Source: Amycolatopsis camponoti
GTDB lineage: Bacteria > Actinomycetota > Actinomycetes > Mycobacteriales > Pseudonocardiaceae
Assembly: GCF_902497555.1 (NCBI RefSeq)
Contig: NZ_CABVGP010000002.1
Coordinates: 2,740,501 to 2,804,500 of the forward strand
Length of the DNA: 64,000 nt
Direction: 5' to 3'
In this document: positions 15,536 through 37,344 of the stretch, one piece after another
Layout of the letters: each line of letters opens with the position of its first letter
Position numbering within the stretch: position 1 is the first letter of the stretch
Program-made: the position numbers and the translations under genes
Notes under the pieces: model-generated
What the model was told of the DNA's origin: nothing
The model's input: only the letters and a program-made list of their open reading frames with translations
The model's database searches: none

Positions 15536-15571
15536 GGGCCATAGGTCCCGGTCGCCGGTGACCAACGGCCG
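15536..15571 (+). promoter_or_regulatory. Tandem DevR/DosR-like boxes upstream of a nitroreductase
   Basis: GGGCCATAGGTCCC at 15536-15549 matches the DosR core GGGACTWWAGTCCC at 10 of 14 positions. A second site, GGTGACCAACGGCC from 15557, starts 21 bp later, about two helical turns. The second site recurs almost exactly at 30229, and both are followed by GATGCTGGA at a similar distance. DosR sites in Mycobacterium tuberculosis also occur in tandem. The match is by eye. Confidence 0.6.
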
Positions 15572-15636
15572 GCGCGCGGGGCGGCCGCCGTCCGCGATGC
15601 TGGAGTGATACAGAGTCCCGACGTCCGGAGCGCGCG

Positions 15637-16623
15637 ATGAGCCGACCGCACCCGACGATGTTCGAGCAGGCCCTCGCCTCGGCCGTCCGCGCACCGTCTC
15701 CGCACAACACCCAGCCCTGGCGGTTCGTGCTCGAGGGCGAAGCGATCGAGGTGTGGCTGGATCGCGAGCGCGTGCTCGCGGTGGCGGATCCGCTCGCGCG
15801 CGAAGCACGGCTGTCTTGTGGCGCGGCCGCGTTCAACGCGGCTGTCCACCTGGGAGCGGACGGGATCGCGACGACCGTCCGGACGATCCCGGATCCGGAC
15901 GCGCCCGACCTCCTGGCCGTGATCCGGCTCGACGGCAACCGGAAGGTGACGCAGACCGACCGCGATCTCGCCGCGGCCGTGTTCCGGCGGCACACCAACC
16001 GCAGGCCCTTCCTGGAGAGGCTGGTGCCGCCCGTCGCGCGCGTCGCGCTGAAGTCGGCCGCGCTGCAAGAAGGCGGGCAGGTGGAGTACCTCGACGAGGC
16101 CGGACACTTTTCCACCGTGACGACGTTGGTGCGTCGTGCCGAAGCGCTGCAGGAGAACGATCTCGCGTTCCGGGCCGAGACCGCGTCCTGGATGCGCCGC
16201 GATACCGCGGCCCCGGACGGCGTGCCGGCGAGCGCCTCCGGGCCTCCGCCGTACGGGTCCAGAGCGGTGTCGCTGCGCGCCTCGCACGCCAACCAGGAGC
16301 TGCCGCCGCGCGAGTTCGAGCAGGACCCGCTGCTGGCCGCCGTCCTCACGCGGGACCGCGGTCCGCACGCCGAGGTCCGGGCCGGGATGGCCATGCAGCA
16401 CGTGCTCCTCACCGCCACCGCGGCGGGCTTGGCGACCTCGTTCCTCTCCCAGCCCTTCGAGACACCGCAGACCCGGGAAGCGCTCGACCGGATCTTCGAC
16501 GGCCACGGGCAGGTCCACACGCTGCTGCGCATCGGCTACGGCCAGACGACGGCGACGACGGCACGACGAGCCGTGGCCGACGTGCTGACCGGCCGCGTCA
16601 CCCCGGATGCTCCCGTGAGGTGA
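15637..16623 (+). CDS. Acg-type nitroreductase family protein
   Basis: The 328-residue product contains RAPSPHNTQPWRF, AAAFNAAVHLG, FRRHTNRRPF and a C-terminal MAMQHVLLTATAAGLATSFL plus LLRIGYG, the pattern of the Acg family (Rv2032/Rv3127/Rv3131 of M. tuberculosis), flavin-binding relatives of nitroreductases that belong to the DosR regulon. It probably stores or binds flavin in hypoxic or nitrosative stress; activity is uncertain for this family. Tandem DevR-like boxes lie 65-100 bp upstream. A shorter paralogue is at 34704. Confidence 0.85.
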   Translation: MSRPHPTMFEQALASAVRAPSPHNTQPWRFVLEGEAIEVWLDRERVLAVADPLAREARLSCGAAAFNAAVHLGADGIATTVRTIPDPDAPDLLAVIRLDGNRKVTQTDRDLAAAVFRRHTNRRPFLERLVPPVARVALKSAALQEGGQVEYLDEAGHFSTVTTLVRRAEALQENDLAFRAETASWMRRDTAAPDGVPASASGPPPYGSRAVSLRASHANQELPPREFEQDPLLAAVLTRDRGPHAEVRAGMAMQHVLLTATAAGLATSFLSQPFETPQTREALDRIFDGHGQVHTLLRIGYGQTTATTARRAVADVLTGRVTPDAPVR

Positions 16624-16857
16624 GAGGGGAGGTGGCGGCCGGGATCTCCACCGCCATCCGCTGCGGCGTGAATCCGGCTGGTGTCGGAGAAGTCTTCCTC
16701 GGTGACGTCGCTCCAGGCGTGCACCGTGACGAGCGGGCGTACCGCGTGACGAGGCCTCCTCGAACGCCGCGCCTTCGAGATGGGGACCCGGCGCGTAGAG
16801 TGCGTGGTGAGTGCCCCGGACCCGGCGCGACGACCAGCCGACCGAGGAGAGCACACC

Positions 16858-17025
16858 ATGGCATCCGTTGATCTCGCGGGAATCGCCGAGCCGCACCGCA
16901 GCGCGGTGACCGCCATCATCGATCTCGCCCGGCAGGGCCTGTTCACGGATGCGCAGGCGCTCCTGATGATCGGACGGATCCGCGCCGTGGCCGGTGACCT
17001 CGTCGTCCGGGAGGGGACACCGTGA
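16858..17025 (+). CDS. Small hypothetical protein (55 residues)
   Basis: The 55-residue protein (MASVDLAGIAEPHRSAVTAI at its start) is mostly amphipathic helix with no cysteines or membrane segment. ATG 16858 is preceded by GAGGAGAG at about 7 nt, and a TAGAGT hexamer lies about 60 bp upstream. I do not recognise a family. Confidence 0.6.
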   Translation: MASVDLAGIAEPHRSAVTAIIDLARQGLFTDAQALLMIGRIRAVAGDLVVREGTP

Positions 17026-17076
17026 CGGCCGCGCGGGTCCGGCTCGCCGACCCCGGGCGGGCTGACCGATGTCGGT

Positions 17077-17274
17077 TCAGTCCGGGACGGGCGGCTCGTC
17101 GTCCGGCGCCGTGAGGCCGTCGGCGGGATCCAGCCCGAGGATGGCGAGCAGCGTGGCGCAGTCGCCGGCGTCGTCGGCCGACGACGCGACCACGCGGGCA
17201 CCACGCCGGCGTTGCTCGGGGCTGAGCGCGAAGGGGTCCGGCTCCCTGCGCGGGGCCACCTTCGGCTGCCTCAT
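17077..17274 (-). CDS. Small hypothetical protein (65 residues)
   Basis: The 65-residue product (MRQPKVAPRREPDPFALSPE then a helix-rich middle and an acidic tail ending PDDEPPVPD) has no recognised domain. The ATG at 17274 lacks a strong ribosome binding site. Support comes from codon bias and a frame that changes from shadow-like to protein-like composition at this start. Confidence 0.45.
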   Translation of the reverse strand: MRQPKVAPRREPDPFALSPEQRRRGARVVASSADDAGDCATLLAILGLDPADGLTAPDDEPPVPD

Positions 17275-17637
17275 CGGCGTGGGGACACGAAGGGAGCGCT
17301 CGGCTCCGCTCGCCGGTGACCCGGTGTGCCCGGTGTCGCGTTGATCATCACAGCCCTCCGCCCGGTCCGGCCACTTCGGGGTGGCACCGCCGAGGTCCGG
17401 GGCGGACACCACCGAGGATAGCCCGCCCGGCCCGCTCGGGACCTCGGCGAACGGGTGGGTACCGCTGCCCGGGCGCCCGCGATGCCGAAGCGGGCTTGCG
17501 GTGAACCGGCGGGCCCGGCCGGGCGCGGTACGCTCGGCACAGCGCCGAAGTGCCCGGTCCCCGCGCTTGCGACGACCGGACGCCCGCGCTCGCGCCCGAG
17601 GTGGCGGGAGCCGGACGGTGATGCCTGGAGCGAACCC
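17275..17637. other. Divergent intergenic region
   Basis: This 363-bp region separates a small minus-strand gene from the STAS gene. I see no recognisable small gene. Promoters for both are expected here; the only clear element is GGAG 8 nt before ATG 17638. Confidence 0.4.
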
Positions 17638-18087
17638 ATGAAGCTCAGCGCGCTGACCATCCGCCGTGGCCCCGACTTCGCACCGGAACCGGTGGTACCG
17701 CTCGTGTTCGGCACACGCCGGGCGCCGTCGCCGGGGCTGAGGCTGGGGGAAGAGCTGATCGGCCGCACCGCGATCCTGGCCCTGGACGGCGAATTCGACT
17801 CCTACACCGCACCCGAGGTCGACCGGGTCCTCGACCTGGTCCTGCGCCGGTGCCCGCAGCGGCTCGTGGTGGACCTCGCGCGGGTCCGCGTCCTGAGTTC
17901 GGCTGGCCTCGAAGTGCTCGTCGCCTGCCACCGGCGGGCCGGCCCGCGGACCGATCTGCGCGTCGTGGCGGCGACGCGGTCGACGTGGCGGCCGTTGCGG
18001 ATCGCCCGGCTGCACGAGACCCTGGTCATCCACAGCTCGCGGGCGGCCGCCGTCGCCGCTCCCGGGTTCGGGGAGCCACGCGCGTGA
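17638..18087 (+). CDS. STAS-domain anti-sigma factor antagonist (phosphorylatable serine kept)
   Basis: The 149-residue protein has about 40 leader residues and then a STAS domain with GRTAILALDGEFDSYTAPEVDRVL and LVVDLARVRVLSSAGLEVLV. In the usual D-S-S/T-G-L motif the phosphorylated serine corresponds to Ser88 here, so this copy can probably be switched by an anti-sigma kinase. It likely frees a sigma factor under stress. A close paralogue at 22917 lacks that serine. The C-terminus (IHSSRAAAVAAP) is nearly the same in both. Confidence 0.85.
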   Translation: MKLSALTIRRGPDFAPEPVVPLVFGTRRAPSPGLRLGEELIGRTAILALDGEFDSYTAPEVDRVLDLVLRRCPQRLVVDLARVRVLSSAGLEVLVACHRRAGPRTDLRVVAATRSTWRPLRIARLHETLVIHSSRAAAVAAPGFGEPRA

Positions 18088-18106
18088 CCCCCGGTTTCCG
18101 GCCGCC

Positions 18107-18640
18107 CTAGGGGTTCGCCGTCGCTTCGCGTGCGATCACGTCGTCGGCCAGCCGGGCGAGGACGGTGTCGACGGCGGGGCCGAGCTTCTGGACGCAGTCG
18201 CAGTCGGGGCCGTGGGCGTCCCGGTGCCAGGCGAACAGGTACTGCAGGGCGAGCTGGTCGACGCGGAAGTCGTGCTCGGCTTCGATCCGGTCGCGTTCGG
18301 CCTGCCGGTTCTGCGACAGCAGCAGCAACGGGGCCGCGTAGGCGGCTTGGGTGGAGAACACGAGGTTCAGCAGGATGAACGGGTACGGGTCCCAGCCGCC
18401 CGCCCAGGCCACGAGGTTGAGCCCGATCCACAGCAGCACGATCACGCTCTGCCCGACGATGAACGGCCACGAGCCGAACGAAGCGGTGACCCGGTCGGCG
18501 ATCCGTGCACCCGCGGTCCGGTGCTCGTACCGATGCCGATTGGCGGGGGAGCGGAACTCGCGCTTGTGTCCTTTTCGGACGTTCATCGGCCCGTTCCGGT
18601 TGTGCCTCGGGGTGCCCGGGCCGGTATCGGCTTCGGTCAT
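18107..18640 (-). CDS. DUF1003 membrane protein
   Basis: The 177-residue protein has a charged N-terminus, two membrane helices (about 60-82 and 88-108) and the DUF1003 signature FGSWPFIVGQSVIVLLWIGLN followed by FSTQAAYAAPLLLLSQNRQA. A cytoplasmic helix continues to the C-terminus. Function is unknown; relatives are sometimes linked with cyclic-nucleotide sensing. It begins 32 bp after the DUF5994 gene on the same strand, probably in one operon. An internal ATG at 18586 is an alternative start. Confidence 0.85.
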   Translation of the reverse strand: MTEADTGPGTPRHNRNGPMNVRKGHKREFRSPANRHRYEHRTAGARIADRVTASFGSWPFIVGQSVIVLLWIGLNLVAWAGGWDPYPFILLNLVFSTQAAYAAPLLLLSQNRQAERDRIEAEHDFRVDQLALQYLFAWHRDAHGPDCDCVQKLGPAVDTVLARLADDVIAREATANP

Positions 18641-18672
18641 CGGTCTCGTGTTCCGTGGTTCGGCGGGGGAGG

Positions 18673-19212
18673 TCAGGAGACTTGCCCGCCTTCGGTTTCC
18701 CAGCCGTCTTCGCTGGTGTCGGGGTGGAGCCGGGGTGCCGCCGGAGCGACGAGGGCCCCGCTCGCGGCCAGGATGTCCGCGGGCCGGTCGGTGTTGCCGC
18801 GACGGGACGCGGTCGTCAGCGCTCGGTGGCCCGCCGGGTCCGCCGCCTCCGGGGGAACGACGAGGAGCGTGAGCTGATCCGGTTCCGAGCCGGTGATCGA
18901 CAGAACGTGGCCGTCCCGGTCGAGGAGACCGTCGAGCCGGACGACGTGGCCGCCGATCTCCATCCGCCGCGGCGCACCGTCCCATTCGGACACGGTGTAC
19001 GCCACCCTGGTGAGGTAGCCCATCCGGGCCGTGAGCACCGCGGCCAGCCCCGGCAGTTCCGCCGCGAGATCACGCGACCGCGGCCACCAGCCGCCGTCGA
19101 CGTGACCAGCCGGCCCGCCCTGCGGTTTCCACCCCAGCCTGGGGGCGGGAGGGGTACCTCGACGCGGTCGCGCGGAGGGCGTTCCGGTTCTGGTGGGCGA
19201 TTCCGGCGTCAT
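18673..19212 (-). CDS. DUF5994 family protein (copy 2)
   Basis: This 179-residue protein carries GHVDGGWWPRSRDLAAELPG, YTVSEWDGAPRRMEIGGHVV and EPDQLTLLVVPPEA, matching the other two DUF5994 proteins of the window but with extra Pro/Arg-rich N-terminal residues. It leads a two-gene unit with the DUF1003 protein. A TAGAAT hexamer about 95 bp upstream could be its -10 element. Confidence 0.83.
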   Translation of the reverse strand: MTPESPTRTGTPSARPRRGTPPAPRLGWKPQGGPAGHVDGGWWPRSRDLAAELPGLAAVLTARMGYLTRVAYTVSEWDGAPRRMEIGGHVVRLDGLLDRDGHVLSITGSEPDQLTLLVVPPEAADPAGHRALTTASRRGNTDRPADILAASGALVAPAAPRLHPDTSEDGWETEGGQVS

Positions 19213-19312
19213 GCCGCTGTCCCGTCCCGATCGCGGTGATCGATGTGGAGGGCAACCGAGGACGGCGCGGGCTCTGCCGCCGACGCGCGAAATGCTCTCG
19301 GTACCTCGGATT

Positions 19313-19660
19313 CTACACCTGTCGCGGCGCATTTCGCGGCTCGCCCAGCTGCGAGACGTGATCTTCGGGGGCATCGGGGACCGGTGGTTCGCCGGCCGGT
19401 TGCGCGGTCACGGCGATGATGTCCCGGTCGTCGACCCAGCGCACCGAGGTCGCGGGGCCGTCGTCGGCGACGATGGGGACGCGGGCCCCTCCGGGGCCGA
19501 ACTCGGGCCGGCCGGCGAGGCTGCCGGTCCGCGGCGAGCGGGGATCCGGGCCGGCGTAGGTGACGCGCCAGCTCCCGACGCTGAACGCGATCTGGCGCCG
19601 AGGCGGGAAGGGAGTGACGTCGTCAGCCGGCACGTCGCGGTCCGGGTTCCCGGCAGTCAT
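19313..19660 (-). CDS. Hypothetical protein (115 residues)
   Basis: The 115-residue product begins MTAGNPDRDVPADDVTPFPP and contains IAFSVGSWRVTYAGPDPRSP and TSVRWVDDRDIIAVTAQPAG, which look like short beta strands. ATG 19660 follows GAGGAGGAG closely, a strong start. No family is recognised. Confidence 0.6.
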   Translation of the reverse strand: MTAGNPDRDVPADDVTPFPPRRQIAFSVGSWRVTYAGPDPRSPRTGSLAGRPEFGPGGARVPIVADDGPATSVRWVDDRDIIAVTAQPAGEPPVPDAPEDHVSQLGEPRNAPRQV

Positions 19661-19872
19661 CCGTCTCCTCCTCGGCCGTGGGTGCGTTCCGCGCGGTGCG
19701 GGGAACGGCGGGCACGCCGAGGTCTGGGGCGGTCCGGACAGCCTAGGCGTCCTACGCCATCCACCAGGGTTGAATCCCCCGGACGGGGGACCTCGAATGG
19801 AGGCGACGGTTGCGGGTCCGGTCGGCGCGCGAGATCGGTCTGCCGCGGACCGAGGTCGTCCCCGGAGCCGGC

Positions 19873-21048
19873 TCAGCCGTCGTGGACGGGCACCGGTCGT
19901 CGCCCCGGCACCGGGCGGGAGCCGCCGCTCCCGGCAAGAGTCGTCGAGGCCAGCTCCGCCACGAGCGCGGCCGGTGAGCAGGTCTCCGCGAACAGCGCGC
20001 GTTGGCGTGCCGCGCCGGTTTCCCCGGCCCGCACCGCGGCGAGCTGCCGCTCGATCGTCGCGAAGTCCCCGGTGGCCTCCAAGGCCGGCCGGACGTAGTC
20101 CAGGAGCCGGCCGACGAGCACGTGGTTCGGGAGGACCCGGCCGGTGCAGGGATCGATGCCTGGGCCGGGGTAGCCGCCGCGGGCCGCGGCGGTGAGCGAT
20201 GCGACGACCGGCGCGGTCCGCACCGGCCGCGGCGCGACGCCGGCCCGGGCCTCCGCGAGGATCGTGACCACCAGGGCGCGGATCAGCCCGGCGAGCAGCA
20301 CGGCGTCTTCGGCCGTCAAGCCGACGTCCGCGATGCGGATCTCGACCGTCGGGTACTTCGGTGAGAGCCGGGCGTAGTAGTAGACCCCGTTCGCGTCCAA
20401 CGCCTCATCACGGCGTACCGCGCCGTCGACGCTCGCGGCGTAGGCGGTCGCGTCCGGCCAGTCCAGGGGCGGGTTCGCGGTCGGCCAGCGCGACCACAGC
20501 GGGTACCGCCCGCTGGCCCACCCGGAGTCCGCGTCGTGGGCGAGCGGCGAATTGGCGCTGATGGCGAGGAGCGGGGCGAGCCAGGGCCGCAGGCCGGCCA
20601 GGACCCGGACGCCGAGTGCCGGGGACGGGATGCCGACGTGCACGTGGCAGGCGCACGTGCCGGCTTCCGGGAGGAGCGCGGGATATCGGGCGGCCAGCGC
20701 GCGGTAGCGGGGTTCGGCGGTGACGCCGGGCAGGCCCGGCAGGTCGCCGCAAGGGGGTGTCCCGGACGCCAGCACCAGGCAGCCGGCGCGACCGGCCGCG
20801 TCGGCCACGAGCCGGCGCAACCCGAGCAGCTCCGCCCGGATTTCGTCGAGGCCGGTGTGGATCCCGGTGGCGGTTTCGATCTGGAACCGCAGGAACTCCG
20901 GCATCACGGCGGGTTCGCCGTCGAGCAGCTCCAGCACCCGGGGCGCGGCGAGCGCCACCCCACCGGTCGCCGGGTCCGCGAGGATGAACTCCTCCTCCAC
21001 GCCGAGGGTCAGATCGTTCCTTTCCGGCAGGGAAAGTCGCACGTGCAC
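19873..21048 (-). CDS. GCS2-type carboxylate-amine ligase (YbdK/EgtA-like)
   Basis: The 391-residue enzyme has LTLGVEEEFILADPATG near its start, the metal/ATP-binding EEEF of glutamate-cysteine ligase type 2, plus ETATGIHTGLDEIRAELLGL, TCACHVHVGIP and YPTVEIRIADVG. The family makes gamma-glutamylcysteine or related amides; in actinobacteria roles in ergothioneine synthesis or weak GCS activity are known. Without neighbouring egt genes the substrate is open. Two DevR-like boxes lie 58-93 bp upstream on the same strand, putting it in the predicted hypoxia regulon. Confidence 0.85.
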   Translation of the reverse strand: MHVRLSLPERNDLTLGVEEEFILADPATGGVALAAPRVLELLDGEPAVMPEFLRFQIETATGIHTGLDEIRAELLGLRRLVADAAGRAGCLVLASGTPPCGDLPGLPGVTAEPRYRALAARYPALLPEAGTCACHVHVGIPSPALGVRVLAGLRPWLAPLLAISANSPLAHDADSGWASGRYPLWSRWPTANPPLDWPDATAYAASVDGAVRRDEALDANGVYYYARLSPKYPTVEIRIADVGLTAEDAVLLAGLIRALVVTILAEARAGVAPRPVRTAPVVASLTAAARGGYPGPGIDPCTGRVLPNHVLVGRLLDYVRPALEATGDFATIERQLAAVRAGETGAARQRALFAETCSPAALVAELASTTLAGSGGSRPVPGRRPVPVHDG

Positions 21049-21424
21049 GGCCGGGCTCCGTCCCTCGGTGGATCGCCAGTCTCACCGGCTCACCCGGTCC
21101 CGCGTAGGGCCTCAGGTCACCCATCGGGGAACTTTCGGCCCTTCCGCGGGACCGGCGGCGGACGGACCCGGAGTGCGCAAGACGATGGGGCGGCCCTCCG
21201 CATTTCCCATTTGTGTTCCAGCGGATGCACGTGAATGTTCCCGCCCTTTCAAAAAGAATCTTTCGGCATTACCCGTCCGGTGGGTTCGTGGCGCTCACGA
21301 TCGGCTAAAATCGGTTGACGCTCCGGACCCTGGTGGTGCATCCAGTCACACCTGGAAACGGAGGCGCTGCGATGGTCGGTATTTCCGTGCTTTTCGCGCC
21401 CGTGTCCTTACCGAGGAATCGTCG
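21049..21424. other. Divergent intergenic region
   Basis: Besides the boxes at 21106-21141, this 376-bp region has an AT-richer segment (about 21190-21310) and TTGACG at 21314-21319 that could serve as a -35 element for the plus-strand gene at 21425. No clear -10 follows at 17 bp. Confidence 0.45.
21106..21141 (-). promoter_or_regulatory. Tandem DevR/DosR-like boxes upstream of the GCS2 ligase
   Basis: Read on the minus strand, GGGCCGAAAGTTCC (21141-21128) matches the DosR core at 11 of 14 positions, and GGTGACCTGAGGCCCT (21121-21106) resembles the GGTGACCAACGGCCCT sites upstream of the phosphoribosyltransferase and the first nitroreductase. The two start 20 bp apart. Confidence 0.6.
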
Positions 21425-22393
21425 ATGACCACCGCCGCGCGCGGCGAACCACTGCCGTTCCGGGTCGAGGTGAGCGATCTCGAAGCGCTCGAGGCGACGA
21501 CCCGCGCGTTCCGCGCCCTGGACTACCGGTACGGCGGCGGGTACTGCCACGCCCCGCTCGCCGCACTCGCCTCGTGGACGGTTCTGCTGCGCGAGGGATC
21601 CGTTCCGCCGCGGCTGCGGCGACGGCTTTGCCGTGGTCTGGCCGACCTGCACAACCTGCTGGCGTGGACGGAGTTCGACTCCGGTCGCGACGGGGCGGCC
21701 CTCCGATCGTTCGACGTGGCGGCGGAGCTGGCCGGGGAAGCCGGGGACCACGATCTGCTCGCCAACGTCAGCTACCGGCGCGGTCGGCTGCACCTGCACC
21801 GCGGCTCGGTCGACGACGCGCTGGCGGAGTTCGCTCGTGGGCAGGACGCGGCGGTGCGGGGGGCGTCGGCCCGGGCGCGGGCCATCCTGTCGATCAACCA
21901 GGCGTGGGCCTGGGCGATGCGGGCGGACGAGTCCGCCGCCTTGCGGCACCTGGGCCAGGCGATCGACGCGTTCCCCGGCGACGCGTCCGCGGCGCCCTGG
22001 ACGCGGTTCTTCGACGCGAACGATCTCGCCGCCATGACCGGAACGGTCCGGGTCGAGCTCGGCCGTACCGTGGGGCGCTACCACGCGGTCCTCGCGATCC
22101 CGTTCCTCGACGACGCGGTGGCCGCCTACGGGCCGGAGATGAGCAGAAGCCGTTCGCTGACCCAGATCATGCTCGCCCTCGCCCACACCCTCGGGCGCGA
22201 CACCGAGGCGGCCGCGCGCGTGGGGACGGAGGCCATCAGCCTCGCACGCGCGATCCGGTCGGTGCGCGCAAAGGGGCGCTTGCGGCCGCTGGAGGCCGCG
22301 CTCCGGGACCGCTCGAGCAGCCGGGCCGGCGGGGAACTGCTGACCCGGATCGCCGAGTTCCAGGCGGAACCCGGGGACGTCCCGGCCGGCTGA
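21425..22393 (+). CDS. TPR-like helical protein resembling the C-terminal half of XRE-type regulators
   Basis: The 322-residue protein is all helical. From about residue 55 it has tetratricopeptide-like pairs: ADLHNLLAWTEFDSGRDGAA, LANVSYRRGRLHLHRGSVDD, ARAILSINQAWAWAMRADES and ALAHTLGRDTEAAARVGTEA. This is the usual sensor half of actinobacterial XRE regulators, but there is no N-terminal helix-turn-helix. ATG 21425 follows AGGAA. It may act as a stand-alone adaptor. Confidence 0.7.
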   Translation: MTTAARGEPLPFRVEVSDLEALEATTRAFRALDYRYGGGYCHAPLAALASWTVLLREGSVPPRLRRRLCRGLADLHNLLAWTEFDSGRDGAALRSFDVAAELAGEAGDHDLLANVSYRRGRLHLHRGSVDDALAEFARGQDAAVRGASARARAILSINQAWAWAMRADESAALRHLGQAIDAFPGDASAAPWTRFFDANDLAAMTGTVRVELGRTVGRYHAVLAIPFLDDAVAAYGPEMSRSRSLTQIMLALAHTLGRDTEAAARVGTEAISLARAIRSVRAKGRLRPLEAALRDRSSSRAGGELLTRIAEFQAEPGDVPAG

Positions 22394-22437
22394 GCCCGAC
22401 CGGCCGGGCGTCACGGCAGTGCGGTGGACGCGAGAAA

Positions 22438-22452
22438 GGTTCCTTCGGCCCT
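22438..22452 (+). promoter_or_regulatory. DevR-like box upstream of the HPF-like gene
   Basis: GGTTCCTTCGGCCCT at 22438-22452 shares the GG-CC-CGGCCCT framework of the other candidate boxes and lies 115 bp before the HPF-like start. It matches the mycobacterial core at only 9 of 14 positions, and no second box is clear. Confidence 0.4.
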
Positions 22453-22566: not shown

Positions 22567-22920
22567 ATGCAGATCCAGATCAGCACGGACCGAGCCGTGG
22601 CCGGTGGCGAAGAGCTGCTCCGGCACTTCGAGGGAGAGCTGGCCGCCACGTTGTCGCGGTTCAGCGACCACATCACGCGGCTGGAGGTCCACTTCAGCGA
22701 GGAATCCGCCACCGACGGACCGGACCGCCGCTGCGTGCTCGAGGCCCGGCCGGTCGGACGGCGGACGGTGGCCGTCAGCCACCACGCGGGTTCGGTCGCC
22801 GAGGCGTGCCGGGGTGCCGTGCACAAACTCGAGAGCGTGCTCGAAGGTGTGTACGGGCGGACCGACCACCACAAGGGCGGGGACTCCATCCGGCACCAGG
22901 GCGGGCGTGCCGGGTCATGA
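22567..22920 (+). CDS. HPF/RaiA-type ribosome-associated protein
   Basis: The 117-residue protein (MQIQISTDRAVAGGEELLRH at its start) follows the short HPF/RaiA pattern, a beta strand, a helix and then LSRFSDHITRLEVHFSEES, with a basic C-terminal half. These proteins bind the small ribosomal subunit and silence or protect it in stationary phase or hypoxia; DosR controls one in M. tuberculosis. It lacks the long C-terminal dimerisation domain. Its stop overlaps the STAS gene by 4 bp (ATGA). Confidence 0.75.
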   Translation: MQIQISTDRAVAGGEELLRHFEGELAATLSRFSDHITRLEVHFSEESATDGPDRRCVLEARPVGRRTVAVSHHAGSVAEACRGAVHKLESVLEGVYGRTDHHKGGDSIRHQGGRAGS

Positions 22921-23363
22921 CCGTGCACCGTGGACAGTGTGCGCCGATCGTGCCCTCCGTCGTCATCGACTTCCCGCGCGCGCCGGTCGCCGGTCACCGG
23001 TACCAGGATTTGACGATCACCGTGGAGCGGCTCGGCGAGACGCTGGTCGTCGCCGTGGACGGGGACGTCGACCTCGGCACGGCGCCGATGCTGCACGACG
23101 TCCTGGACGCGAACCTGGGCCGGGCGCCGCGGCGGATCGTCGTGGACCTGTCGCTCGTGCGGTTCCTGAACGCCGCTGGGCTGGAGGTGCTGCTCGACGC
23201 CCACCGCCGGGCCTCCCCGGGCACCGATGTGCGGCTGGTCGCCACGACGCGCGCGACCTGGCGGCCGCTGCGGCTCACTCGCACCGATGAACGCCTGGTC
23301 GTCCACACCTCGCGGGCAGCGGCCATCGCGGCGCCGCTGTGGGCGGCGGCGGACACCGGCTGA
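22917..23363 (+). CDS. STAS-domain protein lacking the phosphorylatable serine
   Basis: The 148-residue protein has the STAS fold pattern with ETLVVAVDGDVDLGTAPMLH and IVVDLSLVRFLNAAGLEVLL. The motif reads N-A-A-G-L (85-89) where anti-sigma antagonists have D-S-S/T-G-L, so the usual phosphoserine is an alanine (Ala86). It may be constitutively in the unphosphorylated-like state, or not work by partner switching. It is coupled to the HPF-like gene and closely resembles the STAS protein at 17638. Confidence 0.83.
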   Translation: MTVHRGQCAPIVPSVVIDFPRAPVAGHRYQDLTITVERLGETLVVAVDGDVDLGTAPMLHDVLDANLGRAPRRIVVDLSLVRFLNAAGLEVLLDAHRRASPGTDVRLVATTRATWRPLRLTRTDERLVVHTSRAAAIAAPLWAAADTG

Positions 23364-25539: not shown

Positions 25540-25726
25540 GCCCGCCACGCTAGGCGGCCGCCGCCCGGCGTGCCGGGCGGGCGACGTACCGGTCGTGCCG
25601 GGGGAACCTTTCCCTCGGTTCGTTCGTTATGGGTGGTGGCTGCTCTTGCCGCCCATCACTTCCACGGGCCTCTTGCAGCTTCGATCGCTCCGGACCCTGG
25701 CGACTGGCCGTGCCACGGAAAGAGCG

Positions 25727-29410: not shown

Positions 29411-29430
29411 CGAACCAGGAGATGGTGGGC

Positions 29431-30206: not shown

Positions 30207-30243
30207 GGTGCCGAACGGTCCACCTGGCGGTGACCAACGGCCC
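30207..30243 (+). promoter_or_regulatory. Tandem DevR-like boxes upstream of the phosphoribosyltransferase
   Basis: GGTGCCGAACGGTCC at 30207-30221 and GGTGACCAACGGCCC at 30229-30243 agree at 12 of 15 positions and start 22 bp apart. The second equals the site upstream of the first nitroreductase, and both are followed about 24 bp later by GATGCTGGA, which may include the -10 region. Confidence 0.62.
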
Positions 30244-30310
30244 TCGCGCCCCGGACGCGGTGCCGTGATGCTGGAAGCGGCCGACCGGCCCTCGACTCCC
30301 GGGAGTTCCC

Positions 30311-30967
30311 ATGCGGTTCCGCGATCGCCGGGAAGCCGGCGAGCGGCTGGCCCTGCGGTTGCGACCACTGCGCGGCGACCGTTCCGTGGTGCTCGGCCTG
30401 TCGGAGGGCGGCTTGGTGGTGGCCGGCGAGATCGCCGACGTCCTCGGCGCGCCGCTGGACATCCTGCTCACCGGCCGGATCGAGGCCGCGGGGCCGCCGC
30501 CGACGACGCTCGGCGCCGTCGGGGAGGGCGGCTTGGTCGTCTGGGACCACGACGCCATCCGCCGGTTCGACATCGACCCGGCGGAGCTCGCCCGGCTCCT
30601 CGACGAGGCGCGGGCCGGACTGTCCCGGCAGGTCGCCGTCTACCGGCGCACCGTGGCGCCGGCGGCGATCGCCGGCCGCACGGTCGTCCTCGCCGACGAC
30701 GGCGCCGCCACCGGCACGACCGCGCACACGGCGATCCGCGTCCTGCGGGCCCGCCAGGTCCGCCGGATCGTGCTGGCGGTCCCGGTCGCCCAGGCCGACG
30801 TGGTCGACCGGCTCGCCCGGGAGGTGGACCAGTTCGCCTGCCTGCGCCCGCTGCCCTGGCTGCACGCGGTCGGCAACAGCTACCGGAAGTTCCCCGCGGT
30901 CGCCGACACCGAGGCGCTCGCACTGCTGCACCGCGAACCCCGCCTGCCGACCGAGGTCCGCCACTGA
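30311..30967 (+). CDS. Phosphoribosyltransferase domain protein
   Basis: The 218-residue protein starts MRFRDRREAGERLALRLRPL and has VVLGLSEGGLVVAGEIADVL, a flexible-loop region, and VVLADDGAATGTTAHTAIRV, the PRPP-binding signature, then VRRIVLAVPVA. It resembles Rv0571c and the N-terminal half of Rv2030c, both DosR-regulon genes. The nucleobase or other acceptor is unknown. Paired DevR-like boxes lie 65-105 bp upstream. Confidence 0.85.
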   Translation: MRFRDRREAGERLALRLRPLRGDRSVVLGLSEGGLVVAGEIADVLGAPLDILLTGRIEAAGPPPTTLGAVGEGGLVVWDHDAIRRFDIDPAELARLLDEARAGLSRQVAVYRRTVAPAAIAGRTVVLADDGAATGTTAHTAIRVLRARQVRRIVLAVPVAQADVVDRLAREVDQFACLRPLPWLHAVGNSYRKFPAVADTEALALLHREPRLPTEVRH

Positions 30968-30988
30968 TGTCCACAGTGGACTGAAGAG

Positions 30989-31624: not shown

Positions 31625-31629
31625 GGCAG

Positions 31630-31636: not shown

Positions 31637-31641
31637 GGCCG

Positions 31642-31818: not shown

Positions 31819-31825
31819 CCGGACG

Positions 31826-32323
31826 TCACTCCGGGGAGCGGTTCCGCGTTGGCAGGCCGGGCCGGAACGGGATGCCCAGTGCAGCGAAGACGCCGAGCAT
31901 CTTCGCGTTTCCCGCGTCCACGTCGGCGACGAACATCCGCACCCCTTCGTGTTCCGCCGAGACGGCGAGCTGTTCGAGCAGCAGGGCCGCCACGCCGAGC
32001 ACCGGGCCGTGGCCGTCGACCACCAGCGCGACCTGCGCTTCGGCCGGGTCGGCGAGAACGTCGTAGCGGGCGACGCCGGCGAGCCGGGAGTGCACGAAGC
32101 ACCCCACCGCCGTGTGCCCGACGCCGGAGCCGCGGGACAGCTGCGTCGAAAGCTCGGCGAGCCCCGCCACGCCGAGACCGAAGAACATCAGGTGCCGGTC
32201 GCGTCCGGAGAGCCGGGCCCGCAGCGCGAGGACCGCGGCGCCGTCGCATGCTTCCAGCTCGCGGACCCAGGCGACTTCGCCGTCCGGGAGCAGGGCTCGT
32301 ACCGGTGGGGTGGCGGTGGACAT
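31826..32323 (-). CDS. GNAT-like acetyltransferase domain protein
   Basis: The 165-residue product has the sequence order of a GNAT fold related to protein lysine acetyltransferases such as mycobacterial Pat, without a cyclic-nucleotide domain: LRARLSGRDRHLMFFGLG, GVARYDVLADPAEAQVALVV, GVAALLLEQLAVSAEHEGVR and DVDAGNAKMLGVFAALGIPF. A degenerate acetyl-CoA loop (GHGPVLGVAA) makes activity uncertain. ATG 32323 has GAGGAG upstream. It is downstream of slipin on the same strand. Confidence 0.72.
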   Translation of the reverse strand: MSTATPPVRALLPDGEVAWVRELEACDGAAVLALRARLSGRDRHLMFFGLGVAGLAELSTQLSRGSGVGHTAVGCFVHSRLAGVARYDVLADPAEAQVALVVDGHGPVLGVAALLLEQLAVSAEHEGVRMFVADVDAGNAKMLGVFAALGIPFRPGLPTRNRSPE

Positions 32324-32361
32324 GGACTCTCCTCGCAGGGCCGGTGACCCGCCCGGGTCCA

Positions 32362-32392
32362 CAGTGCTCTGTCCTTTTCGCACAGAACACTG
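32362..32392. terminator. Stem-loop between slipin and GNAT genes
   Basis: CAGTGCTCTGT at 32362-32372 pairs with 32382-32392 in 10 of 11 positions around a 9-nt loop. It lies just after the slipin stop on the minus strand. Without a T-run it could weaken read-through or stabilise the upstream mRNA. Confidence 0.5.
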
Positions 32393-32411
32393 CGGAGTCC
32401 GTCGGCGCGGG

Positions 32412-33260
32412 TCAGTGCTCTTCGGCCCGGGTTCCGTTCACGGCCGCTTTCGGCGGCACGATCGGGGCCGTGGCGGCCGGTTCCGGCCGGGTCGCGGCGG
32501 CGCTCTCGCGGGCCAGGAAGGAGCCCAGCTCGCCGATGGTGCTCATCAGCGGGGCGGGGAACACGACGGTGGTGTTCTTGTCCACGCCGATCTCCACCAG
32601 GCTCTGCAGGTTGCGCAGCTGCAGCGCGAGCGGGTGCGCCATCATCGTGTCCGACGCCTCGCCGAGTGCGGCGGCAGCGAGGGATTCGCCTTCGGCGCTG
32701 ATGATCTTGGCGCGCTTTTCGCGTTCCGCTTCGGCCTGCCGGGCCATCGCCCGTTTCATCGTGTCGGGCAGCTGGATGTCCTTCAGTTCCACCAAAGTCA
32801 CTTCCACGCCCCAGTCGAGCGTGGTGACGTCCAGGATCCGGCGGATGTCGACGTTGATGCTGTCGGTCTCGGACAGCGTCTCGTCGAGCGTGTGCTGCCC
32901 GACGACCTTCCGCAGCGTCGTCTGGGCGATCTGGTCGATCGCGGCGTAGACGTTCTCGATCGCGACGACCGACTTCACCGCGTCCCGTACCCGGAAGTAC
33001 GCCACCGCGGACACGTCGACGCTCACGTTGTCCCGGGTGATGATGCCCTGGGACTGGATCGGCATCGTGATGATCCGCAACGGCACCCGGCGCAGGACGT
33101 CGACGACGGGGACGATCAGCCGCAACCCCGGCTCGCGCACGCCGATCACCCGGCCGAGCCGGAACAGGACACCCTGTTCGTACTGCTTGACGATCCGCAC
33201 CGCGGTAGCGAGGAGAAGCAGCAACGCGGCGGCGATGGCGATGATCACGAGAACGTTCAT
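32412..33260 (-). CDS. SPFH-domain slipin/stomatin-like membrane protein
   Basis: The 282-residue protein has an N-terminal membrane helix (3-22) and a stomatin-type SPFH domain: IVKQYEQGVLFRLGRVIGVR, PGLRLIVPVVDVLRRV, AVAYFRVRDAVKSVVAIENV and a coiled coil with AMARQAEAEREKRAKIISAE. It likely forms oligomeric membrane microdomains. No NfeD partner gene is adjacent. It is 36 bp downstream of the BON-domain gene and probably in its operon. Confidence 0.9.
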   Translation of the reverse strand: MNVLVIIAIAAALLLLLATAVRIVKQYEQGVLFRLGRVIGVREPGLRLIVPVVDVLRRVPLRIITMPIQSQGIITRDNVSVDVSAVAYFRVRDAVKSVVAIENVYAAIDQIAQTTLRKVVGQHTLDETLSETDSINVDIRRILDVTTLDWGVEVTLVELKDIQLPDTMKRAMARQAEAEREKRAKIISAEGESLAAAALGEASDTMMAHPLALQLRNLQSLVEIGVDKNTTVVFPAPLMSTIGELGSFLARESAAATRPEPAATAPIVPPKAAVNGTRAEEH

Positions 33261-33296
33261 GGTGCTCCAGACTTCGCGGCTAGCGCGGGAGGAGGT

Positions 33297-33995
33297 TCAG
33301 CCGGAGAGCTTCACCTGGTTGTCGACCGAGGTCACACCGGGGGCGAACCACGCGGTCTGCTCGGCCGAACGGCGTTCGGCCGGGGTGAGGACCTGGCCGG
33401 TCAGGGTGACCTGGCCGTCGTCGATGCCGACCTCGACGTGCTGCGCGAACCCCGGCGCGTGCCGGGCGAGCGCCGCGACGATCTGCGCCTTGGTCTCGGA
33501 CGCCGAGACACCCGGCGAAGGCCGCAGCGTGATCAGGTTCCGCACCCCGCTGATGCCGGGGAGCACGGCCACCGCCCGGCGGGCGGCTTCGCGCTGGTAG
33601 TGCCAGTCCACCGAGCCGCGTAGGGTGACCACCCGGTCGCGCACGTCGACCTGCACCGAGTCCTTCGGCACGACGATCGTGTGGCGGTCGAACACGGCCA
33701 TGGCCTCCCGGGCGAGATCCGCGTCCACCGGAACGTCGTGACCGTGCCGGACGAGGATCTTGTCCGCGGTCGTGGTCACGCCCTGGACCCGCGTCGCGGC
33801 GCGCAGCGCCTCTTCCTTCTCGGGGTAGGTGCCCACGTGTCCGGACAGCGTCGCGACACCGTCCGAGACGGTCACGCCGATCCCTTCGGCGTTGACGCTG
33901 GGGGTCCAGGCGAGTTCATCGGTGACAGCGGTCTTGAGGTGATGATCGGGCCTGTGCTGGATCTCGGTCATCCCTCCACCGTGGTCCGTCCGCAC
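33297..33995 (-). CDS. BON-domain protein with three BON repeats
   Basis: The 232-residue soluble protein (from GTG 33995) has three BON domains: GIGVTVSDGVATLSGHVGTY, SVQVDVRDRVVTLRGSVDWH and HVEVGIDDGQVTLTGQVLTP. BON domains bind phospholipid or hydrophobic ligands and protect membranes under stress. The alternative ATG 33971 has GGAGGG only 1 nt away, too close, whereas GTG 33995 lies 5 nt after TAGGCA and may be leaderless. The gene is divergent from devR across a shared regulatory region. Confidence 0.82.
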   Translation of the reverse strand: MRTDHGGGMTEIQHRPDHHLKTAVTDELAWTPSVNAEGIGVTVSDGVATLSGHVGTYPEKEEALRAATRVQGVTTTADKILVRHGHDVPVDADLAREAMAVFDRHTIVVPKDSVQVDVRDRVVTLRGSVDWHYQREAARRAVAVLPGISGVRNLITLRPSPGVSASETKAQIVAALARHAPGFAQHVEVGIDDGQVTLTGQVLTPAERRSAEQTAWFAPGVTSVDNQVKLSG

Positions 33996-34013
33996 CGCGC
34001 TGCCTAGTGCCGC

Positions 34014-34057
34014 GGGACCCTTCTTCCGGGGTCGTTCGGCGCGGGCGGGCGTAGCCT
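34014..34057 (+). promoter_or_regulatory. devR promoter with possible autoregulatory DevR box
   Basis: GGGACCCTTCTTCC (34014-34027) matches the DosR core at 9 of 14 positions and is centred 44 bp before the GTG 34064. TAGCCT at 34052-34057 leaves 6 nt before that GTG, so transcription probably starts at the start codon. The box could also act on the divergent BON gene. Confidence 0.5.
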
Positions 34058-34063
34058 GGGGAA

Positions 34064-34744
34064 GTGGATGACCGCACGCAGCACGACCTCCCCGTCATCA
34101 CGGTCTTCCTGGTCGACGACCACGAACTCGTGCGGCGCGGAGTCGCCGAACTCGTCGACGACGAACCCGACCTGACCGTCGTCGGGCAGGCGTCCTCGGT
34201 CGCCGAGGCCATGGCCAGGATCCCCGCGCTGCGCCCGGACGTGGCGGTGCTCGACGTGCGGCTGCCCGACGGGAACGGCGTGGAGCTGTGCCGAGACCTG
34301 CGCGCGGCGCTGCCCGGCCTGCGGTGCCTGATGCTGACCTCCTTCACCGACGAGGATTCGATGGTCGAAGCGGTCTTGGCCGGCGCCGAGGGGTACGTCA
34401 TCAAGGACGTGAAGGGATTGCAGCTGGTCGACGCCATCCGCCGCGTGGGGTCCGGCGAGACCCTGCTGGACGCCCGGGCGGTCGCCGCGCTCGTGGGCGA
34501 ACTGCGGGCGAAGACCGGGAAACCGGGGCCCCTCGCGGGGCTGAGCGAGCAGGAACTCGTCCTGCTGGACCTGCTCGGGGAAAGCCTGACGAACCGGCAG
34601 ATCGCCGAGCGGATGTTCCTCGCGGAGAAGACCGTCAAGAACTACGTGTCCCGCTTGCTGGCGAAGCTCGGCTTGGAGCGGCGGTCGCAGGCGGCGGTGC
34701 TGGTCACCGGGATCCACGACGCGGAGCGCCGTCCGGGCGGCTAG
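34064..34744 (+). CDS. devR: NarL/FixJ-type response regulator, DevR/DosR-like
   Basis: The 226-residue protein has a receiver domain with acidic D18/D19, phospho-acceptor Asp64 ([13 protein letters not shown]), Thr92 ([10 protein letters not shown]) and Lys114 (YVIKDVKGL), and a LuxR-type helix-turn-helix with [20 protein letters not shown]. The linker and HTH wording closely follow mycobacterial DevR/DosR, which activates dormancy genes in hypoxia or NO. The partner kinase is probably the one at 35752. Its 3' end overlaps the convergent nitroreductase gene by 41 bp. Confidence 0.92.
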
Positions 34745-35606
34745 TGGCGAACGGGTGCTCGTCGCTGATCACGACGTCCTCGAGCGGGGTCCGCGCCGAC
34801 GACGGCACCGCGGTGCCGTGACCGAGCCGCAGCATGATCTGGGGCCAGAGCCCGCCGCCGAGCAGCTGCCGCAGTTCACGCCGGGTCGTCGGCTCGGCCA
34901 TCGCCTGGGAGGAGAGGGCTGCCGAGATCCCGGCGGCGGCGGCCGTCAGCAGTACCCGCTGCATGGCCTGGCCGGCCTGGAGCCGGCCGAGGGGGGTGTC
35001 GTGCAGCGTGCCGACTACCACGACCAGCCGGCCGGGGTCAACGTCGAGGTCGTTCCCGCCACCCGGTCCCGGTGTTCCGGGCGAGACTTCCGTGCGGCGC
35101 ATGATGTCGCGCAGCTGCGGCACCTGGTCGGCGGTGATGGTGGCCAGCCAGGCGCGTTCCACTTCGGCCGCCCGCCGGAGCTGCCGCTGCACCGCGTCGG
35201 GGACGACGGCGGCGGTGAACGGGCGCCGGTTGCTCTGCCGGCCGGCGATGGCCGCCACGAGCTCCCCGTCGTGCGGGGTGATCGTCTCGTAGCCGTTCGG
35301 CTGTACGACGGCGAGCAGCTCGGGCCGCCCCGCCGTGGGCAACAGCCGGACGTCGGCGTGGCTGCCCTGCGCCTTGATCGCCAGCCGGAGGTTGAGCAGC
35401 GCCGCGCCGCAGTCCAGCATTCGTTCCCGTTGTTCGCTGTCGGTGCCTGTGGTGAGCGGATCCGCGTACAGCTCGACGGAATCCGGGGTGCACTGGAACC
35501 GCCACGGCCGGGCGGACCGCAGCGGCGGGGGAGCCGTGGCCGCGAGGAGGACGGCGTGCACCTGGCTCGCGCTGAGGTGGCCGACGGGCATGACACCGGT
35601 CTTCAT
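34704..35606 (-). CDS. Acg-type nitroreductase family protein (second copy)
   Basis: The 300-residue protein has [56 protein letters not shown] and [20 protein letters not shown], the Acg pattern seen in the copy at 15637. ATG 35606 follows GGAG at 7 nt. It lies between devR and the kinase and shares the latter's divergent control region. Known Acg proteins bind flavin but lack part of the usual dimer, so enzymatic activity is uncertain. Confidence 0.85.
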
Positions 35607-35673
35607 GGACGGCTCCGAACTCCTGGATTACTGGATGCGCTTTCACCGTCTGCCCGGACAGCGGGCTCCGCCC

Positions 35674-35711
35674 AGTGCCGAACGGCCCCCGCCTCCGGGC
35701 GAAGGTCGTCG
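35674..35711. promoter_or_regulatory. DevR-like boxes between kinase and nitroreductase genes
   Basis: AGTGCCGAACGGCCC at 35674-35688 differs by 3 positions from the site GGTGACCAACGGCCC. A weaker GGGCGAAGGTCGTC starts at 35697, 23 bp later. The pair lies between divergent start codons at 35606 and 35752 and could serve both genes. Confidence 0.55.
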
Positions 35712-35751
35712 GTTGCGACCCGGATCGGGACCGCTGTGTCACAGTGGTGGC

Positions 35752-37344
35752 ATGCCCGAGGAAACGACGTCGGGCCGGGACCGGATGGACGCGCTGCCGG
35801 CGGCCGTCCTCGCCTTTTCCGCCGGTCTGGAGCTCGAGACGACGCTGCACCGGATCGTCACGGCCGCGGCCGGCCTGGTCGGCGCCCGGTACGGCGCGCT
35901 GGCCCTGCTCGACGAGGACGGCCGGACGACCGCGTTCGCCGTGACCGGCGTCGACGACGCCACCCGGGAGCGGCTGGGCCCGCCACCGGACGGCCACGGG
36001 CTGCTCGGCGCGCTGGTGACCGGCCGGGCTCCGGTGCGCCTGGCCCACCTGGGGACCGGTGAGTTCCCGCCGGGCCATCCGCCGATGGGGGCGTTCCTCG
36101 GCGTCCCGCTGCCGGTGCGGGGCGAGGTCCTCGGACGGTTGTACCTCAGCCGCGAGCAGCCGTTCACCGCCGACGACGAACGGGTGACCGTGGCGCTGGC
36201 CGCGGCGGCCGGGATCGCGGTCGACAACGCGCGGCTTTACGAGGAGAGCCGGAGCAGGCAGCGGTGGCTGGAAGCCACCGGGGAAATCTCCGCCGAGCTC
36301 CTGGGCGGCACGGACGTCCGTGAGGTGCTGCACCTGATCGCGACCCGGGCCGCCGAGCTCACCGGCGCCGACGACGCGCTCATCGCGTTGCCCGAGCAGC
36401 CGGGTGGGGCACTGGTCGTCACGGTGTGCGCCGGCCCGGACGCCGATGTGCTGGCCGGTCGCCGCATCCCGCTCGACGGGTCGACCTCGGGCGCGGTCCT
36501 GCGGGACCACGTGCCGCGCAGTGTGCCGAAGCTGACGTACGACCTGGCCGGCGGCCTCGGCGTGGACCTCGGGCCGGCGCTGGTGGTGCGGTTGCGGTCC
36601 GGCTCGCGGTCCGGCGCGGCGGTGCTCCTGGCGATCCGCGGCCGCGGGGCGGCGCGGTTCGCCGAGCACGAGCTGCAGCTCGTGTCCGCCTTCGCCGACC
36701 AGGCCGCGCTGGCGCTGCGGGACGCCGAAAGCCAGGCCGCCCGCCGGGAGCTGGACGTCGTGGTGGACCGCGACCGGATCGCCCGCGACCTGCACGACCA
36801 GGTCATCCAGCGGCTCTTCGCGGTGGGCCTGGGGATCGAGGGCACCCGCCGCCGGTCCGATTCGCCCGCGGTCACCAGCCGGCTCACCCAGCACATCGAC
36901 CAGCTCCAGGACGTCATCGAGGAGATCCGCAGCGCGATCTTCGCCCTGCAAGCGCAGCCGGGAGCCGGGCGGGGCCTGCGGGCCCGCCTGCAGAACGCGA
37001 TCGCCGACACGACCGCCGACTCCGCGATCCGCACGACGGTGCGGCTGTCGGGGGCGTTCGACCGGGTGCCCGCCGGTCTGGCCGAACACGCCGACGCGGT
37101 CGTCCGCGAGGCGGTCACCAACGTCCTGCGGCACGCGAGGGCGGCCGAACTGGCGGTCACCGTGTCCCTGGAAGGCGACCTGGTCGTCGAGGTGTCGGAC
37201 ACGGGGGTCGGGATGCCGGAAGCCGTGGCCCGCAGCGGACTCCGCAACCTCGAGCAGCGCGCCGCGGAGGCGGGCGGATCGTTGCGGCTCGACCGCCCGG
37301 CCGGAGGTGGCACCCGTCTGGTGTGGACGGTCCCCGTTCCCTGA
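35752..37344 (+). CDS. Sensor histidine kinase with heme-type GAF domain, DevS/DosT-like
   Basis: The 530-residue kinase has GAF-A (about 20-160), GAF-B (165-325), HisKA_3 with phospho-acceptor His348 (RDLHDQVIQRLFAVGLGIEG) and an ATPase domain with EAVTNVLRHA and DTGVGMPE. In DevS the proximal heme ligand His149 lies in HPPM and Tyr171 is 22 residues on. Here HPPMGAFLGVPLPVRGEVLG starts at His109 and Tyr131 is also 22 residues on, so heme binding and O2/NO/CO sensing are likely. The mRNA may be leaderless: CACAGT ends 6 nt before ATG 35752. Confidence 0.92.
   Translation: MPEETTSGRDRMDALPAAVLAFSAGLELETTLHRIVTAAAGLVGARYGALALLDEDGRTTAFAVTGVDDATRERLGPPPDGHGLLGALVTGRAPVRLAHLGTGEFPPGHPPMGAFLGVPLPVRGEVLGRLYLSREQPFTADDERVTVALAAAAGIAVDNARLYEESRSRQRWLEATGEISAELLGGTDVREVLHLIATRAAELTGADDALIALPEQPGGALVVTVCAGPDADVLAGRRIPLDGSTSGAVLRDHVPRSVPKLTYDLAGGLGVDLGPALVVRLRSGSRSGAAVLLAIRGRGAARFAEHELQLVSAFADQAALALRDAESQAARRELDVVVDRDRIARDLHDQVIQRLFAVGLGIEGTRRRSDSPAVTSRLTQHIDQLQDVIEEIRSAIFALQAQPGAGRGLRARLQNAIADTTADSAIRTTVRLSGAFDRVPAGLAEHADAVVREAVTNVLRHARAAELAVTVSLEGDLVVEVSDTGVGMPEAVARSGLRNLEQRAAEAGGSLRLDRPAGGGTRLVWTVPVP

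Follow-up and report, generated by a model that had tools for sequence, protein, structure and literature searches.

In a 64,000-nucleotide stretch of Amycolatopsis camponoti DNA (contig NZ_CABVGP010000002.1, positions 2,740,501 to 2,804,500; hereafter the window), we looked at an island of genes located at about 15.5-37.3 kb of this high-GC window and encoding a DevR-type response regulator and a DevS-type sensor kinase. DevR/DevS is the textbook oxygen and nitric oxide (NO) switch of mycobacterial dormancy. Sequence comparisons argue strongly for a paralogous DevR/DevS regulon island peculiar to an Amycolatopsis subgroup, which we called DevRS-A. Its DevR-box regulon is genuine and has few targets, but is a lineage-specific second copy. 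Since relatives hold a second DevR/DevS, the island is probably a paralogous satellite regulon.

The DevR-A regulator and the DevS-A sensor

34064..34744, plus strand: DevR-A, response regulator of 226 residues, LuxR/NarL type (Pfam receiver and GerE domains)
35752..37344, plus strand: DevS-A, sensor kinase of 530 residues (frame 35335-37344, start taken as 35752)

The gene first annotated as devR-like encodes a full-length DevR/DosR-type protein. Its receiver and NarL/LuxR DNA-binding domains align end to end with DevR, and its match to Mycobacterium tuberculosis DevR (3c3w) reaches 291 bits over residues 12-224, the next entry, VraR, having 124 bits. As seen by alignment, the DVRLPDGNG phospho-acceptor region and the recognition helix are retained. 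This helix is common to DevR-A and mycobacterial DevR (M. gastri row), is the same in the rows of the second, B-type DevR of relatives except for one residue near the helix end, and is identical in nearly all A-type, B-type and mycobacterial rows. DevR homologues with 91-97% identity to the window protein were found in 16 of 80 Amycolatopsis genomes, that of A. iheyensis being at 91%. In a tree of 104 DevR sequences, the 21 DevR-A rows formed one group (100/98), apart from five B rows; the A label had been fixed before the tree, at no less than 75% identity to the window DevR.

The kinase has the GAF-GAF-HisKA_3-HATPase plan of DevS/DosT (Pfam), and it matches both the heme domains and the kinase cores of these two proteins. 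The parts of the structural study consulted give His149 as the DevS heme ligand, describe a role for Tyr171 and report a crystallised construct of residues 63-210 (PMC4082495). The equivalents, His109 (in HPPM) and Tyr131, are kept in the first GAF domain (GAF-A) of the window protein, His109 being matched to His149 by our own count, which takes residue 63 as the first of the crystallised construct. The kinase annotated as DevS-like has both the domain plan and the heme-ligand His of DevS and, because this His and the distal Tyr are kept, may still sense O2, NO or CO. Its GAF-A is 4 residues shorter than that of DevS/DosT in the stretch before HPPM.

A Pfam scan of 30 frames confirmed that devR, the DevS-like kinase gene, two nitroreductase-family genes, and HPF, phosphoribosyltransferase, BON and GCS2 genes lie together in the island, as initially annotated. 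'Acg-like' was the initial label of the nitroreductase genes, whereas Pfam gives the nitroreductase family.

15637..16623, plus strand: NTR1, nitroreductase-family gene (Pfam)
19873..21048, minus strand: GCS2, glutamate-cysteine ligase family 2 (Pfam)
21425..22393, plus strand: TPR-like protein (Pfam, below cut-off), divergent from GCS2, with which it has a box pair in common
22567..22920, plus strand: HPF / S30AE-like protein (Pfam)
22950-23363: STAS2, 29 bases 3' of HPF
30311..30967, plus strand: PRT, phosphoribosyltransferase (Pfam)
33297..33971, minus strand: BON-domain protein with three BON stretches, divergent from devR (Pfam)
34704..35606, minus strand: NTR2, nitroreductase-family gene, divergent from devS (Pfam)

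The island also holds three DUF5994, two STAS and two GAF-ANTAR genes by Pfam; no USP was found among the 30 frames scanned in the window. Some loci of mycobacteria and Nocardia have a PRT homologue (38-42% identity) close to devR.

DevR boxes are enriched in intergenic DNA of the island

For this, two matrices were used. The OsdR matrix was made from 26 published site sequences (Table 1 of PMC5069765, a paper seen in part) and is independent of the window because only published OsdR sites entered it. The second, Amycolatopsis matrix was trained on the boxes of relatives. The sites listed in the initial annotation, GGTGACCAACGGCC at both 15557 and 30229 with relatives at 21106, 30207 and 35674, were found as described. 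Three sites are weaker than had been implied (15535, 15557 and 21106, with 6.2, below 6 and below 6 bits by the OsdR matrix).

35674..35689: box AGTGCCGAACGGCCCC, common to NTR2 and devS, 15.97 bits (OsdR matrix), the top site of the 64 kb
35695..35710: weak second NTR2/devS box CCGGGCGAAGGTCGTC, 21 bp from the 35674 box
30229..30244: proximal PRT box GGTGACCAACGGCCCT, followed by the -10-like TGATGCTGG
30207..30222: distal PRT box GGTGCCGAACGGTCCA, 22 bp from the proximal one
30277..30292: further strong match (14.4 bits) 3' of the PRT -10, less regular in relatives
21127..21142: GCS2/TPR box GGGAACTTTCGGCCCT
21106..21121: paired GCS2/TPR box AGGGCCTCAGGTCACC, 21 bp off, 11.0 bits by the Amycolatopsis matrix
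22437..22452: HPF box AGGTTCCTTCGGCCCT
15557..15572: NTR1 proximal box GGTGACCAACGGCCGG, 9.3 bits by the Amycolatopsis matrix
15535..15550: NTR1 distal box, minus strand, GGGACCTATGGCCC, 22 bp off, 4.5 bits by the Amycolatopsis matrix
34006-34021 and 34028-34043: weak tandem pair between BON and devR, 4.4 and 5.6 bits

With the OsdR matrix, the intergenic DNA of the island (5,089 bases) gave six sites of at least 8 bits (35674, 30277, 30229, 21127, 22437 and 30207). The remaining intergenic DNA of the window (8,632 bases) gave one, and a 400-kb sample taken at even spacing from a relative's genome (G025) gave five in 54,781 intergenic bases. At 10 bits and above, the same three sets held four, none and one site, an about 40-fold excess in the island over the sample; the intergenic borders behind these counts are approximate because genes were called by our own GC-frame script. 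Fifteen other islands (20 other loci fetched, minus G001, G023, G060 and both G011 loci) held 57 sites of at least 8 bits and 36 of at least 10 bits in 61,618 intergenic bases. No excess at 10 bits was seen in coding DNA, with 0 sites in 18,396 bases of the island, 12 in 238,157 of the 15 islands and 17 in 344,919 of the sample.

The initial annotation had proposed a GC-rich box variant peculiar to this organism. We found instead that the box matches the published OsdR/DevR element, although C is favored at position 5 in the island. Its frequency there is 0.82 among 22 distinct sites, and 0.40 among 31 sites from six second-DevR regions, the OsdR matrix having been used to select both sets. 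Two intergenic DevR-box-like sites also lie outside the island, at 1164-1179 and 40532-40547 (11.2 and 12.4 bits by the Amycolatopsis matrix).

Box spacing and promoter conservation give a short target list

Box pairing had been described as tandem, 20-23 bp apart, and the comparison of relatives narrowed this figure. We took the offset from the best box, between 12 and 40 bp on either side, at which the mean score of a second site was highest; it was 21 or 22 bp in all five promoter groups (PRT, 17 rows; GCS2, 8; devS, 20; HPF, 12; devR, 11 rows at that offset). As the rows within a group are orthologous, these are five observations; the PRT value is partly circular since both PRT boxes entered the Amycolatopsis matrix, and the devR pair is weak. 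Closely packed DevR boxes are bound cooperatively by DevR (PMC3029386, seen in part).

Conservation was then counted in promoter rows that include the window, rows below 55% identity being dropped (below 60% for DUF5994 and STAS1), which removed G011's devS. Boxes of at least 8 bits by the OsdR matrix were present in 19/20 rows for devS, 20/21 for NTR2 and 16/17 for PRT, and in 2/4 for TPR and 0/1 for NTR1. By contrast, none was found in the neighbouring AI-2E (0/10), Band7 (0/12), ANTAR1 (0/15), ECF (0/8) and DUF1003 (0/4) promoters, and nearly none in those of ANTAR2 (1/18), DUF5994a, b and c (0/5, 1/4 and 0/8), STAS1 (0/2) and STAS2 (0/9). DUF5994, GAF-ANTAR, Band7, AI-2E and ECF genes were accordingly rejected as direct targets in the window, their promoters being mostly devoid of boxes, and the suggestion that DUF5994, STAS and GAF-ANTAR genes belong to the regulon did not hold for direct targets. 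STAS2 could follow HPF only by read-through across the 29 bases between them, and DUF5994c could follow only the desaturase gene, which it overlaps by 4 bases. No paper on DUF5994 was found in the open-access literature. The footprint argues against DUF5994 and GAF-ANTAR as direct targets. It also yields a few dormancy-type targets for a genus other than the mycobacteria, namely HPF, the GCS2 ligase and the phosphoribosyltransferase.

Some promoters have boxes in relatives and none in the window. A box of at least 10 bits is present in 4/13 rows of the desaturase promoter (G001, G031, G055, G076) and in 5/10 rows of the DUF6292 promoter (the same four and G040), the counts being the same at 8 bits. 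The desaturase/DUF6292 intergenic region, with a box of 10.1-14.1 bits in these four genomes, looks like a target gained or lost. Besides, GCTCCGGACCCTGG is common to the leaders of the TPR and desaturase genes (window 21320-21333 and 25687-25700). Most relatives keep a related CGCYCCGGACCC-TGGCG 5' of the desaturase gene, beside a GTTT...GGGCTA stretch that the window lacks and that resembles stress-sigma promoters.

A second, B-type DevRS in relatives

B-type DevS, defined by at least 74% identity to that of G025, was detected in 14 of the 19 island genomes. It was not found at E <=1e-50 in the other five (G001, G062, G065, G068, G069), the completeness of the genomes not being given. A strict box pattern, GGKGACCWWNGGCCC, gave 27 matches in 8/19 island genomes (six for the reversed control), several of them no more than about 30 kb away from another DevR. 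In G025 (3.01-3.07 Mb), this second DevR and its DevS have the order devR-nitroreductase-devS, as in the island. Ten proteins of the region were scanned and corresponded to NiFe hydrogenase, pyridine-nucleotide oxidoreductase, USP, PPDK, GNAT/CoA-ligase, HSP20, cytochrome bd subunit I (cydA), phosphoketolase (XFP), WS/DGAT and globin. They include a canonical dormancy gene set (HSP20, USP, cydA, NiFe hydrogenase, PPDK, XFP). Gene content was read in G025 only, and the other five B regions were scanned for boxes only. On G025 contig C1 (3700794-3702483), an extra B-type DevS is split between overlapping frames, one at 94% and one at 86% identity, and is probably a broken copy.

The heme ligand was lost repeatedly in the DevS-A lineage

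We compared 22 distinct A-type DevS: the window's, those of 19 other loci, the frame-disturbed copy of G011 and that of G063. Fourteen of them, including the window's, retain His and Tyr. The heme-ligand His is absent in the other eight, by deletion in seven (G001, G031, G055, G076, G060, G011, G011b) and by a change to Asn in G009. G001, G031, G055 and G076 have the same deletion, which keeps the frame and leaves 491 residues instead of 530; in these four and in G011b, the Tyr171 equivalent is altered too. Contrarily, His and Tyr are kept in 20/20 distinct B-type genes (21 rows, L075 and L240 being one gene). In the other DevS-like rows, with duplicates left in and G011 moved to the A-type, His is present in 67/69; the L024 match stops short of the site and L055 is without it. 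These data show that, in this lineage, whatever selection maintains the remainder of DevS-A does not require the gas-sensing ligand.

A possible explanation, which we hold tentatively, is that DevS-A is being freed from gas sensing, with a dispensable heme lobe and with DevR-A driven by another input, whether GAF-B, another kinase or a cross-phosphorylating B-type DevS. The seven deletions and the His to Asn change point in this direction, as they represent at least four events in our own reading of the DevR tree, which is not a test. So do the ratios of nonsynonymous to synonymous substitution rates (dN/dS) in three pairs of one deleted clade (G001/G031/G055), with 0.29-0.38 for the kinase and 0.68-1.09 for GAF-A, the latter from few changes (106 codons); GAF-A gave 0.22-0.44 in six ligand-keeping pairs, and the G055-G076 pair was too close to read. 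However, the deleted pair G060-G011 showed the opposite (GAF-A 0.28, GAF-B 1.09, kinase 0.79), the last two values being inflated by G011's frame, and with such a GAF-A value the remaining domain may still be constrained. In G011, the protein from GAF-B through past the phospho-acceptor His lies in another frame, so this copy may be dead or misread, and in G031 the first 26 codons are out of frame. These disturbances speak against the explanation, as does the retention of His and Tyr in the 14 other genes.

The predicted structures, of moderate confidence (mean predicted local distance difference test, pLDDT, 81.2 and 77.0; predicted template modelling score 0.50 and 0.48), would fit a dispensable heme lobe. 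In the AlphaFold model of the deleted A. iheyensis DevS, four GAF-A strands appear to remain, with a pLDDT of 74-88 in this block, falling to 62 around the site of the deletion (residues 71-80). In that of the window protein, modelled without heme, residues 85-113 around the heme His are below 50. Six of the seven genomes with a ligand-less DevS-A also have a heme-type DevS-B, which is in favor of a sensor freed from gas, but ligand loss shows no clear link with the B-type (6/14 genomes with it, 1/5 without). No paper on heme loss in DosS homologues was found in the open-access literature, judged by title and the start of the abstract.

It is possible that DevRS-A is changing its input within one genus, the ligand having been lost at least four times, mostly by deletion, with kinase, regulator and tandem-box operators kept. 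If true, a dormancy-type regulon would answer to some signal other than a gas bound to heme, or would depend on the second DevS. With many members carrying a canonical copy beside one whose sensor repeatedly loses its heme ligand, the genus offers a natural experiment on the parts of DevS, separating gas sensing from kinase control.

Proposed mechanism and alternative explanations

We propose that phosphorylated DevR-A would bind pairs of DevR boxes 21-22 bp apart, just 5' of the core promoter; as this distance is two helical turns, two dimers would sit on one face of the DNA. DevS-A is the likely kinase of DevR-A. The regulator would activate NTR2 and devS from their shared divergent control region, as well as PRT, HPF (perhaps with STAS2) and GCS2/TPR, and, less surely, NTR1 and devR/BON, where the weak tandem pair makes autoregulation by DevR-A possible. 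The gene products point to ribosome hibernation, thiol/redox chemistry and functions of the nitroreductase family in cells that are not growing. We infer binding, activation, phosphotransfer, signal and gene-product roles from the sequences.

Several points weigh against a DevR-A regulon as described here. The background rate at 10 bits and above comes from one site only. Boxes of at least 8 bits are present in just 6/12 rows for HPF and 3/8 for GCS2; alignment reveals more than the threshold count, with the HPF core in 11/12 promoters and two GCS2 sequence blocks, GGCCGAAAG and GGCCCT, in 8/8 rows. The counts are lower still for devR (3/21) and BON (4/17), and unclaimed promoters also reach 8 bits (p31826 in 4/14 rows, p27515 in 3/13, p30989 in 2/8). 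No NTR1 counterpart of at least 55% identity occurs in any of the 20 other loci, and the NTR1 boxes score poorly by the independent OsdR matrix. ANTAR, Band7 and other genes travel with the island without boxes, so that the island as a whole does not form a single regulon. Finally, the second DevR of the window species is deduced from relatives, and a DevR-B could use the island boxes because the recognition helix is shared.

The initial annotation saw in the island a compact hypoxia regulon. In this view, the organism would have here its ordinary hypoxia/dormancy regulon, and DevS-A would sense gas through heme in the normal way. We consider this rather unlikely, and somewhat less probable than a sensor freed from gas. 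The retention of His109 and Tyr131 in the window, as in the 14 A-type genes counted above, the conserved DevR and boxes, and the five island genomes without a detected B-type DevS agree with it, as do the clustered OsdR targets in Streptomyces (PMC5069765, seen in part). Against it, HSP20, USP, bd oxidase, hydrogenase and phosphoketolase lie near a different DevR in G025, the heme ligand is absent in 8/22 A-type DevS, and the window GAF-A is shortened before HPPM. What stands of that proposal is the clustered DevR/DosR-type regulon with tandem boxes. Its 'hypoxia' was taken from the name of the system, and the sensor lineage is repeatedly without heme ligand. Hypoxia control of the island is plausible on sequence grounds, and a 'low-oxygen switch' may not be the whole story since the oxygen-sensing part was lost in several relatives. 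That the boxes are chance matches in GC-rich DNA is extremely improbable and was rejected: moderate single matches are indeed frequent in coding DNA (49 sites of at least 8 bits in the 344,919 coding bases of the sample), but the intergenic excess with the OsdR matrix, the conservation of the boxes and their constant spacing speak against it.

Other features of the window

A small open reading frame (14839-15051, 70 residues) with a CAVCPHP...RGCVC cysteine pattern lies just 5' of DUF5994a and overlaps its start by 4 bases. A Pretoxin-HINT domain protein (38120-39115) follows a short frame (37837-38085), Rhs-like by eye and without Pfam match, and adjoins a GC drop at 40-48 kb. A protein of 1401 residues with trypsin-like, CHAT, AAA and TPR domains is encoded at 43377-47582. 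A valine/glycine-rich repetitive frame (9493-10092) has no Pfam match and is perhaps just a repeat misread as a gene. Scans of the window for tRNA genes and Rfam families gave no match.

Comparison with known systems

In the open-access literature on Amycolatopsis DosR dormancy, what was found concerns MnoSR. OsdR/OsdK of Streptomyces coelicolor (SCO0204/SCO0203) resembles the island by its DevR-type regulator, DevS-type kinase and identical box, and by targets clustered around the regulator, a nitroreductase-family one among them; such clustering around osdR is already published (PMC5069765, seen in part). Unlike the island, the OsdR cluster is described there as rich in USPs and nitrate reductase, and the words phosphoribosyltransferase and glutamate-cysteine are absent from the main text.

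The B-type DevRS cluster, such as that of G025, has the same devR-nitroreductase-devS order, recognition helix and similar boxes. It differs by its separate DevR group, its canonical gene set (as read in G025) and the His and Tyr kept in all 20 distinct B-type DevS.

The M. tuberculosis gene set differs from that of the island, and Rv3131 is a nitroreductase; beyond the DevR, DevS and NTR2/PRT comparisons made here, target genes of the island have putative M. tuberculosis homologues. The M. tuberculosis DevR(DosR)-DevS/DosT system is similar in the domain plan of DevR and DevS and in the heme-ligand His of the window copy. In the island, however, a nitroreductase gene lies between devR and devS, and the lineage loses its heme ligand. 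Two closely packed boxes are also found in a divergent promoter region of M. tuberculosis, tgs1-Rv3131 (PMC3029386, seen in part). Finally, Mycobacterium smegmatis likewise has two DevR-type regulators in one genome (MSMEG_5244 and MSMEG_3944), both induced by low oxygen (PMC8125055, seen in part).

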